Assembly: GCA_015057165.1 (NCBI GenBank) | Contig: SVEY01000013.1 | Location: forward strand, 1 to 64,000 | Source of the DNA: Lachnospiraceae bacterium | GTDB lineage: Bacteria > Bacillota > Clostridia > Lachnospirales > Lachnospiraceae | DNA length: 64,000 nt | Direction: 5' to 3' | In this document: piece by piece, positions 60,211-63,241 of the stretch | Layout of the letters: every line of letters begins with the position of its first letter | Position numbering within the stretch: position 1 is the first letter of the stretch | The notes under the pieces: generated by a model | Seen by the model: only the letters and a program-made list of their open reading frames with translations | The model's database searches: none | Told to the model about the DNA's origin: nothing | Program-made: the position numbers and the translations under genes

Positions 60211-60474
60211 CTACAGCACCCCTTCCTCTATCAACTCTTCTGTATATGCGTCTATTGCTTCAGACGAGTCTATCTCTTCAATGCTCTTAAGCATCTCATA
60301 TTCTGATACAGTGATGATCCTGCTTTCGCAGACATAATCTGTATATGCTTCCATATCCTCGGTAGCTTCGTGATGCTCTTCTTCAATGTTGCGCCTCTGG
60401 ATATAAGTTTCCGGCGATATCAATTGAAGTTCACTAGGCCGCTCTGCAGAGCGTTCTTCTTTCCATGCTTTCAT
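60211..60474 (-). CDS. Small phage tail-region protein
   Basis: 87-aa acidic ORF overlapping the end of the RT gene. Confidence 0.5.
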   Translation of the reverse strand: MKAWKEERSAERPSELQLISPETYIQRRNIEEEHHEATEDMEAYTDYVCESRIITVSEYEMLKSIEEIDSSEAIDAYTEELIEEGVL

Positions 60475-61597
60475 TCTTTGTCCTCCTTGATATAATCTTC
60501 TTCATCGAGCCTATGTTTACATAGGGCTTAATCTCACATAGATAACAGTCATAAGTATCTGTGCATTTGAACCATCCCATATAAGAGATGATCGCACACA
60601 TATGTTTTGAATATACAAGTTTATTCTCTTCTCTTCGTCTCTTTATTCTTTTGGCAAGTCTCGTTGCATGAATAAGGATCCCTTTTCTGATAGTAGTTAT
60701 ACCTCTACCGAAAGCGAATCCCATAAAATCGATACAACGGCCAATAGTCCGTTTACTCTTGTGATATACAAATTTTGCAACTTGCCAATTGTTCTTTAGT
60801 TTCAACCGGAATCGTCTTCCGATGAACTTCTTAATCTCTATTAGTGCTTCATGTAGCCGCTTCTTATTGTCGGCCATAAAGGTAATGTCATCCATATATC
60901 TTATGTATATATGGAAACCTAACTTTTCATACATAAACCAATCGAGAGGCTCTAACAAGTAATTAGCAAGCCATTGGCTTATATAAAATCCAAGCGGAAT
61001 ACCTTTCTTGAATCCCTTCAGGCATAGCTCGATTATGTATAAAAACCATTCATCCTTAATTCGAATGCGAAGCTCCCTCATCAAGATAGGAAGTCTTATG
61101 CTGTCATAGAAATGTCTAATATCAGCTTTAGTAAAGTTTCTTATACCTTTACCATGTCTAATCCAACGCTCCAACCTTCTTTTAGCCATATGCGCGCCAC
61201 GTTTCGGAAAACTACCGCAGGAATACGGATATGATGTCCGAGTAATTATTGGCTCTAACACCAAAATAATTATGTGATGAAGCCATTGCTCATGGATTTC
61301 CGGCATGTATATCTTTCTTTCCTTACCATGCTCATAGATAATCCTTGGCGTTCTCTTTCTCGGCTTATAAGCAAGCTCCGGATTAGGAACTTCTACGCCT
61401 TCCGGTTTTGTGTTTAGTATCATTAGATACATCATATCGACTTCTTCATCTAGATGTTCGTCGATATATATTATTTCTCTTCTTGTTGTTTTTCCTTTTC
61501 GTAACTTTTTGTATGCTAGTCTAATAAGATCCTTGTCTAGCATCTTAGAATACAGATATTTATATTGTTTCTTGCCTTTAGTTTCAAAGTAGTTCAT
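60434..61597 (-). CDS. DGR-type reverse transcriptase
   Basis: FTKADIRHFYDSI, GIPLGFYISQWLANYLLEPLDWF (LGxxxSQ-like motif of DGR RTs), IYIRYMDDITFMA catalytic YMDD; no maturase domain; adjacent TR/VR. Confidence 0.93.
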   Translation of the reverse strand: MNYFETKGKKQYKYLYSKMLDKDLIRLAYKKLRKGKTTRREIIYIDEHLDEEVDMMYLMILNTKPEGVEVPNPELAYKPRKRTPRIIYEHGKERKIYMPEIHEQWLHHIIILVLEPIITRTSYPYSCGSFPKRGAHMAKRRLERWIRHGKGIRNFTKADIRHFYDSIRLPILMRELRIRIKDEWFLYIIELCLKGFKKGIPLGFYISQWLANYLLEPLDWFMYEKLGFHIYIRYMDDITFMADNKKRLHEALIEIKKFIGRRFRLKLKNNWQVAKFVYHKSKRTIGRCIDFMGFAFGRGITTIRKGILIHATRLAKRIKRRREENKLVYSKHMCAIISYMGWFKCTDTYDCYLCEIKPYVNIGSMKKIISRRTKNESMERRTLCRAA

Positions 61598-61790
61598 AGT
61601 TCTATAAATATAAGATAGTTTTTTCTTCTATCTCCTACGCACAGGCAGGTGCGACCGCTTTACCGTGCGCCCTGTATCGGAATAATTACCACTCCCCTAA
61701 CCAATAAATGGCGGATAAGACGTGTTTCAACGCCCAGAGGTGTAATTGAATGAAGTCTACATTGGGTTAATATTGTCTTGGATAGAATTA

Positions 61791-61901
61791 GGACGCGCCG
61801 ATGTTCCAGTTCGCATTCGTCGAGACATTGTTCAAATTCAGCGCGCCGACGCCATCAATGAGGTCATTGTTGCAATTGCCGAACCGAATGGCCACCGCCG
61901 T
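61791..61901 (-). repeat. DGR template repeat (TR)
   Basis: 111-bp near-copy of the VR in noncoding sequence between RT and target gene; reads in target frame as AVAIRFGNCNNDLIDGVGALNLNNVSTNANWNIGAS. Confidence 0.93.
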
Positions 61902-61990
61902 ACCGAACGGACGCCGCCGTACAGTCGTAGCTTCATCCCCTAGTTTACATAGTTACAAAAATTTATTGTGGGGGAATGCCCCCACACCCC

Positions 61991-63241
61991 CTACGCCGCA
62001 TCTGGAGATGCGCCGACAGGTGGTAGCAGAAGAACGGACGCGCCGACGTTCCAGTACGCAGTCGTCGAGACATAGTTCAAAGACAGCGCGCCGACGCCAT
62101 CAATGAGGTCACCGTTGCAAGCGCCGAACCGACTGGCCACCGCCGTTATCGTGGCGTTGACCCAAAGACCATCGCATCCACCTGTTGATGATGTTCCTCC
62201 ATAAGGCGGAACAGGTATCGTTCCAAACTTTTCAACAACAGCGTACTTATGCGGATAGTTAGCACTTGCTGCAGCTAATTGAATACCTGTGTCTTTATAT
62301 GTTGTTGCCGGTGTAGTTATATCGTATTTATAGTTAGGAGACACGTATACCCTTCCGTTAACACTCTGAGTATATGGATCTCTCTGCCACTGCTGCCATG
62401 AGCCAAGTACGACAGAATGAAGTATCTTGTTAAGATGCTTCTTATCGTCACTTCCAGTTCCATAAAACTGACCGCCACCAACAACCGCATTGGCAAGTAC
62501 ACCATAAGTAGGAGACAGCGACGCGTCATATCCGTAGCAATTACCATAACCATACTTATTCTGGATATCTGAGGTCTTGCCCCACAGAATAAGGAGGTCA
62601 TGAATAGTGTTGATAATAGCACCGCCAAGGAATTTAGCTCTTGACGAGAATGCATCAATAGCGGCCTTCTCCTGTGCCGTTGTCTTACCATATACAGGTT
62701 GAGTACCTGATACAGACATCATTTTGTCATTAACGATTGAACCGTAGAACATAGGGAGCCATACGCCTTCAAGCTCATTATCATCAGAGTCAATAAAGCC
62801 TACTGGCTCGAAGCCATCTCTTGGAGTAAGAGAAAACTTAACATATCTATCACTTCCTACGATATACTCTTTCTTATATATCTTCTGAAGCCAAGAGAAA
62901 GCACCACCGTCATATGATGTATTGGCTACATCTGAAGCGGTCTCTCCGTCAACCTTTTTAGTATAATCCGTAGAGGACAGCTCATAGTCAACATAACCGT
63001 CGCTCTTAACCATATAAGGCTTGTTATTCTTAAGAACCGGGAACTCAGACCAATCTCCGAGAGAAAAGCCACCACCCATAGTAATAGTTATAGGGCTATA
63101 TGCCTTATTAAGACCGATATAGTCAATCCTCTCATCCGGATCTAACACGTCCATATGCTCAACAAAGCCATATACATTTTCTTCGTTAAGTATTTTAGAT
63201 ATCTCATCCACAGCGTACTGTGCTGCCACAAAATCGCTCAT
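61991..63241 (-). CDS. DGR target: phage tail/receptor-binding protein with C-terminal variable domain
   Basis: Immediately downstream of tail-fibre gene; C-terminus AVASRFGACNGDLIDGVGALSLNYVSTTAYWNVGAS is the VR. Confidence 0.88.
   Translation of the reverse strand: MSDFVAAQYAVDEISKILNEENVYGFVEHMDVLDPDERIDYIGLNKAYSPITITMGGGFSLGDWSEFPVLKNNKPYMVKSDGYVDYELSSTDYTKKVDGETASDVANTSYDGGAFSWLQKIYKKEYIVGSDRYVKFSLTPRDGFEPVGFIDSDDNELEGVWLPMFYGSIVNDKMMSVSGTQPVYGKTTAQEKAAIDAFSSRAKFLGGAIINTIHDLLILWGKTSDIQNKYGYGNCYGYDASLSPTYGVLANAVVGGGQFYGTGSDDKKHLNKILHSVVLGSWQQWQRDPYTQSVNGRVYVSPNYKYDITTPATTYKDTGIQLAAASANYPHKYAVVEKFGTIPVPPYGGTSSTGGCDGLWVNATITAVASRFGACNGDLIDGVGALSLNYVSTTAYWNVGASVLLLPPVGASPDAA
61997..62012. 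promoter_or_regulatory. Small hairpin/cruciform just past the VR 3' end
   Basis: cgcatct-gg-agatgcg (or 6-bp stem with 4-nt loop), 23 bp from the VR end, overlapping the last codons of the target gene. Confidence 0.5.
62036..62146 (-). repeat. DGR variable repeat (VR)
   Basis: Aligned to TR at +245 bp offset without gaps; in the 110-bp core 11 mismatches, 10 at template adenines (coding strand). Confidence 0.93.

Follow-up and report, generated by a model that had tools for sequence, protein, structure and literature searches.

Organization of the retroelement locus

The minus strand of the window, by which we mean the whole 64,000-nucleotide stretch analysed here, almost certainly carries a diversity-generating retroelement (DGR), which sits in a prophage. 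Along this strand the element consists of a target gene with the variable repeat (VR) at its 3' end, a hairpin, the template repeat (TR), a structured RNA and the reverse transcriptase (RT) gene, downstream of which lie small phage genes, including one for a holin, plus an amidase. The features are as follows.

61991..63241, minus strand: target gene, phage tail protein of 416 aa (phrog_5302, tail, E 4e-84; structure model matches TaqVP, 5VF4)
62036..62146, minus strand: VR, codons 366-402 of the target gene, with ten A>N and one T>G relative to the TR
62133, minus strand: exceptional site on the VR side, coding G; ATT (Ile) to AGT (Ser) at residue 370 of the target
61968..61985, minus strand: hairpin of 7 bp (GTGGGGG/CCCCCAC) with a 4-nt loop, directly past the target stop codon; candidate retrohoming hairpin/cruciform
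61791..61901, minus strand: TR of 111 nt with 25 template adenines, between target and RT as in relatives
61888, minus strand: exceptional site on the TR side, coding T; column 22 of the Epona alignment
61626..61744, minus strand: structured spacer RNA, Rfam RT-4 (RF03025), 117 bits, between TR and RT
60434..61597, minus strand: DGR RT of 387 aa with LGFYISQ and YMDD (RVT_1, E 1.8e-15; phrog_1423, reverse transcriptase)

The RT motifs LGFYISQ and YMDD represent the DGR motifs (I/V/L)GxxxSQ (region 4) and YxDD, and both are kept in aligned relatives. The structure model of the target (pLDDT 91) has Thermus aquaticus TaqVP (5VF4) as its best Foldseek match (E 1e-9, probability 1.00), followed by Mtd, whereas a Phmmer search of the target against the PDB gave no useful match. 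Although TaqVP is a Thermus protein and the target is encoded by a phage tail gene, with 12% identity and a TM of 0.48 between them, the target is predicted from this model to have the C-type-lectin-type fold of DGR variable proteins, with the VR at the 3' end of its gene.

The element itself is an ordinary, standard DGR, newly added to a known kind, and its close relatives occur mainly in Lachnospiraceae genomes. The nearest named relative, the DGR of Faecalibacterium phage FP_Epona (MG711462), has an RT 61% identical to that of the window and shares the target-TR-RT order, an RT-4 RNA in the same place and lysis genes behind, but it comes from another host and has its own TR sequence and a target only 58% identical. 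An acidic 87-aa open reading frame (60211-60474, minus strand) overlaps the 3' end of the RT gene and matches phrog_20201, a family of unknown function; FP_Epona has an 87-aa open reading frame at the same place. The DGR of Bordetella phage BPP-1 (AY029185) likewise has target, TR and RT on one strand, adenine changes and a structured spacer RNA between TR and RT; however, its RT is only 24% identical, its spacer RNA is RF03022 rather than RF03025, and it encodes Avd (PF22296) between VR and TR, for which no counterpart was found in the window DGR. A PF22296 search that detects the Avd of BPP-1 found no bAvd in the genome of the window or in the clade records searched, leaving room for a very divergent Avd; PF05635 was set aside because it gave no match even in controls.

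Hairpins similar to 61968-61985 lie behind the VR in most of the relatives that were folded, and related loci carry a structured RNA at the site of RT-4, where BPP-1 has RF03022 (Phage_DGR). The Rfam families RT-4, RT-14 and RT-18 all occur in this position between TR and RT of DGRs (61626-61744 in the window, 4119-4287 in L366, 3795-3939 in L373 and 2395-2471 in L110). The analysis thereby ties these three families to the DGR spacer position, and they are probably DGR spacer RNAs.

Template and variable repeats of the window element

TR and VR, which are both read on the minus strand, form an ungapped alignment (offset 245) with 11 differing sites, and an independent repeat search recovered the same pair; no second VR or TR was detected in the rest of the genome. 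Ten of these sites are template adenines (61802, 61811, 61816, 61829, 61837, 61838, 61867, 61868, 61876 and 61877), changed to G in four cases and to T and C in three each. Changes thus affect 10 of the 25 template adenines and 1 of the 86 other bases (hypergeometric p = 6e-7 for adenines receiving 10 or more of the 11 mismatches). All 11 positions had been listed in the preliminary description of this DNA, whose adenine-specific signature with a single exception is borne out; many non-adenine mismatches, named there as evidence to the contrary, are absent from the recomputed alignment. Its count of ten changed adenines also stands, while its span of 61791-61900 with about 24 template adenines becomes 61791-61901 with 25.

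The exception, also read correctly in that description, is a coding T in the TR (61888) that appears as G in the VR (62133), turning Ile (ATT) into Ser (AGT). Within the match it is 13 nt away from the 5' end, ahead of the first changed adenine. Three viral contigs carry the window locus nearly unchanged, and two of them include the whole VR, which is identical to that of the window. In these two near-identical loci from other assemblies (L003 and L005) the TR and VR are the same as in the window, T>G included, so the change is no one-off base-call error. Elsewhere in the clade, a pair of loci that share one TR and differ in their VRs (L018 and L019) suggests activity. Activity and retrohoming of the window element itself are inferred.

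Whether TR or VR had changed at this site had been left to an alignment of homologous DGRs. In that alignment, T is kept in 68 of 70 related TRs while G is found in 9 of 70 VRs, which indicates that the VR, not the TR, changed at this codon, and did so repeatedly. Seven pairs show T>G at the site, whereas T>A and T>C occur there in no pair.

Thymine-to-guanine changes across DGRs

TR/VR pairs were collected at loci whose RTs are relatives of six query RTs, giving 315 distinct pairs. The discovery set (253 unique pairs, four RT groups) was drawn with the window/Epona, BPP-1, Bacteroides phage Versailles and Butyrivibrio phage Arawn queries, and the hold-out set (62 pairs) comprised Vibrio VP58.5 relatives and some loci nearer FP_Brigit; a scan for crAss-like RTs found no relatives. 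Pairs were detected by a scan that took no account of base identity, and the subsequent trimming made no distinction between C, G and T. A pair was kept only when adenines accounted for at least 70% of its mismatches, and cores were trimmed so that fixed differences between TR and VR past the 3' end were dropped. One L056 pair that is no DGR repeat was left out, and the Bacteroides CCGCTT[T]TACCG end cluster was left out of the pooled rates.

Among changes at bases other than adenine, the discovery set contained 70 T>G, 10 T>C, 3 T>A, 15 C>T, 8 C>G, 2 C>A, 7 G>A, 4 G>T and 4 G>C, and the hold-out set 13 T>G, 2 T>C, no T>A and 1 G>T. Pooled rates per 1000 template bases were 10.1 for T>G, 2.3 for C>T, 1.6 for T>C, 1.3 for C>G, 1.1 for G>A and at most 0.65 for the others, with 0.5 for the reverse change G>T. 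Thymine changed to G rather than C in a ratio of 77 to 12, and T>G was seen in every DGR group sampled. When each of 112 TR clusters was counted once, the T>G rate was 6.7 per 1000 (95% CI 4.1-9.6), compared with upper bounds of at most 3.8 for the other classes, and after events had been collapsed by local context, 41 T>G remained, with 10 T>C and 3 T>A. The exception at 61888 is therefore one case of a recurrent, directional T>G class that is also found in the middle of VRs, and is not noise.

It is extremely improbable that these differences reflect altered TRs (G>T) or sequencing errors. Polarity judged from the nearest TRs placed the change in the VR in 59 of 66 cases and in the TR in 7, and only the latter fit a TR change, which at the window's site is further opposed by the T kept in relatives' TRs; TR change was rejected on these two grounds. 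The reverse change serves as an internal control, since sequencing errors, or drift in either copy, should produce G>T as often as T>G, yet 5 and 77 were counted, and T>G also occurs in cultured strains (L081). Sequencing or assembly error was rejected on the TR/VR asymmetry together with the identical loci from other assemblies.

The preliminary description had linked the exception to its position near the 5' end of the VR, where non-template changes were taken to be more likely. On such a view, cDNA would have replaced the 3' part alone and an old point mutation could survive at 61888/62133. Such drift agrees with the location of the site before the first changed adenine and with a somewhat higher density of T>G at 5' ends, but it should yield mostly transitions, and at C and G too, whereas T>G makes up 20 of the 27 non-adenine changes at the 5' ends of VRs. 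The expectation of more non-template changes near the 5' end holds only for T>G, which is modestly raised there, and not for C and G, whose changes do not exceed 1.3 per 1000, the same as in other parts of the VR. Between changed adenines, a region that cDNA must have replaced, T>G is common too (10.1 per 1000, compared with 14.5 before the first changed adenine), and 51 of the 70 discovery cases do not adjoin a changed adenine. With 10 to 30 nt removed at either end, the T>G rate was about unchanged, reaching 12.7 per 1000 at 30 nt. Drift is accordingly an unlikely source of the class, and an end-of-repeat artefact was rejected because the rate holds after core trimming and end-stripping.

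Several T>G changes recur at the same sites, including Epona codon 5, GGC[T]TGCG and, in the BPP-1 clade, GAAC[T]CCG (7 of 22), so local hot spots, selection at sites or shared ancestry contribute to the counts. The repeatedly hit codons, such as those changed from Leu/Ile to Arg/Ser/Gly at codon 5 or from Ser to Ala in the BPP-1 clade, would be expected if selection retained T>G in the VR as improvements of the tail protein. However, 24 of 82 T>G changes are synonymous against an expectation of 2001 of 7578 (29% versus 26%) and codon positions are hit evenly. Since the synonymous share matches expectation, amino-acid selection is not what produces the class, and under selection T>A and T>C should not have been passed over; this explanation is very improbable.

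Origin of the changes and relation to published work

Changes of template thymine depend on the neighbouring base: T>G affected 0.3% of T before G, 1.0% before C and 2.0% before A or T. In the context-collapsed data the effect of the 3' neighbour (p 5e-5) exceeds that of the 5' neighbour (p 6e-3). By the order in which an RT copies its template, the 3' neighbour is the base copied just before, and T>G thus depends on that neighbour. The opposite order applies if T>G arises in second-strand synthesis or integration of the cDNA, made by a host polymerase rather than the RT (e.g., a Y-family enzyme, or insertion of oxidised dGTP opposite A). Oxidised dGTP is known to give rise to T>G, and a host polymerase would yield the identical base change, but its synthesis would pass the 5' neighbour first, and the pattern is common to phages of unrelated hosts, so that a host polymerase is an unlikely source.

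The likeliest cause, to which we assign a probability of about 0.62 from the sequence comparisons, is an error of the RT in the same reverse transcription step that diversifies adenines. In the proposed mechanism, the TR would be transcribed together with its structured 3' spacer (RT-4 RNA), and the RT would copy the TR RNA to cDNA, with misinsertion at roughly half of the template adenines. This cDNA would then replace the VR at the 3' end of the tail receptor-type gene, thereby rewriting the tail protein mostly at Asn codons. At about 0.5-1% of template uridines, the RT would put in dC where dA belongs, and the VR would then show T>G. The adenine errors of bRT likewise depend on the 3' neighbour, and in E. 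coli dC is the wrong base that bRT prefers opposite A (PMC12875486). In natural pairs dC opposite A is also commonest, with 2116 A>G, 1323 A>T and 959 A>C in the pooled data.

Other observations count against an RT error. The published non-adenine error of BPP-1 is just 0-0.5%, as cited in PMC6642488, and VRs with T>G had slightly fewer changed adenines than others (0.52 versus 0.56). A context rule shared by A>G and T>G was tested for and not found, A>G being highest and T>G lowest before G, and this difference, together with the strong site hot spots, speaks against the RT. DGR RTs as a class probably make a second directional error by placing dC opposite template U, with hot spots and at a frequency of roughly 0.5-1% per template T, and DGR mutagenesis would then not be purely adenine-specific. 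Separately, in related loci of all RT groups, template A before G changed to G in about 64% and to C in 0.3%, and template A before T changed to C in 20%, unlike the published figure of 2.5% for E. coli experiments with bRT (PMC12875486).

Non-adenine changes in many TR/VR pairs were also found in the survey of non-A-to-N changes by Yan et al. 2019 (PMC6642488), in which, however, thymine changed preferably to cytosine. The T>G class contradicts this published preference, and some of the counts in that survey may stem from fixed differences at the ends of the repeats. In the parts of Roux et al. consulted, the adenine bias is described as nearly universal and a T>G class is not reported (PMC8144416). 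Our literature search found no report of such a class, with prior mention possible in primary in vitro fidelity work or in the description of RT-4. DiGReF demanded a match at all non-adenine bases (PMC3521204), and programs with this requirement would cut or drop pairs with T>G.

Starting from a single exception in an ordinary DGR, the analysis uncovered a T>G class in natural DGRs that is reproducible and directional. The class is relevant to the way DGR enzymes misread their template and to the output of DGR-based mutagenesis tools. If dC is indeed inserted opposite U, DGRs would sample residues that are out of reach by adenine changes alone, as in Leu to Arg.

Two further observations arose among the sampled loci. 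In L013, L078 and L079, AAC was changed to NNT, with C>T right behind changed adenines in three VRs, perhaps by short slippage. In Vibrio phage VP58.5, the first 44 residues of the annotated RT (gp20, CAX65001; L338 3749-3880) are translated TR, and the annotated RT start looks too early.
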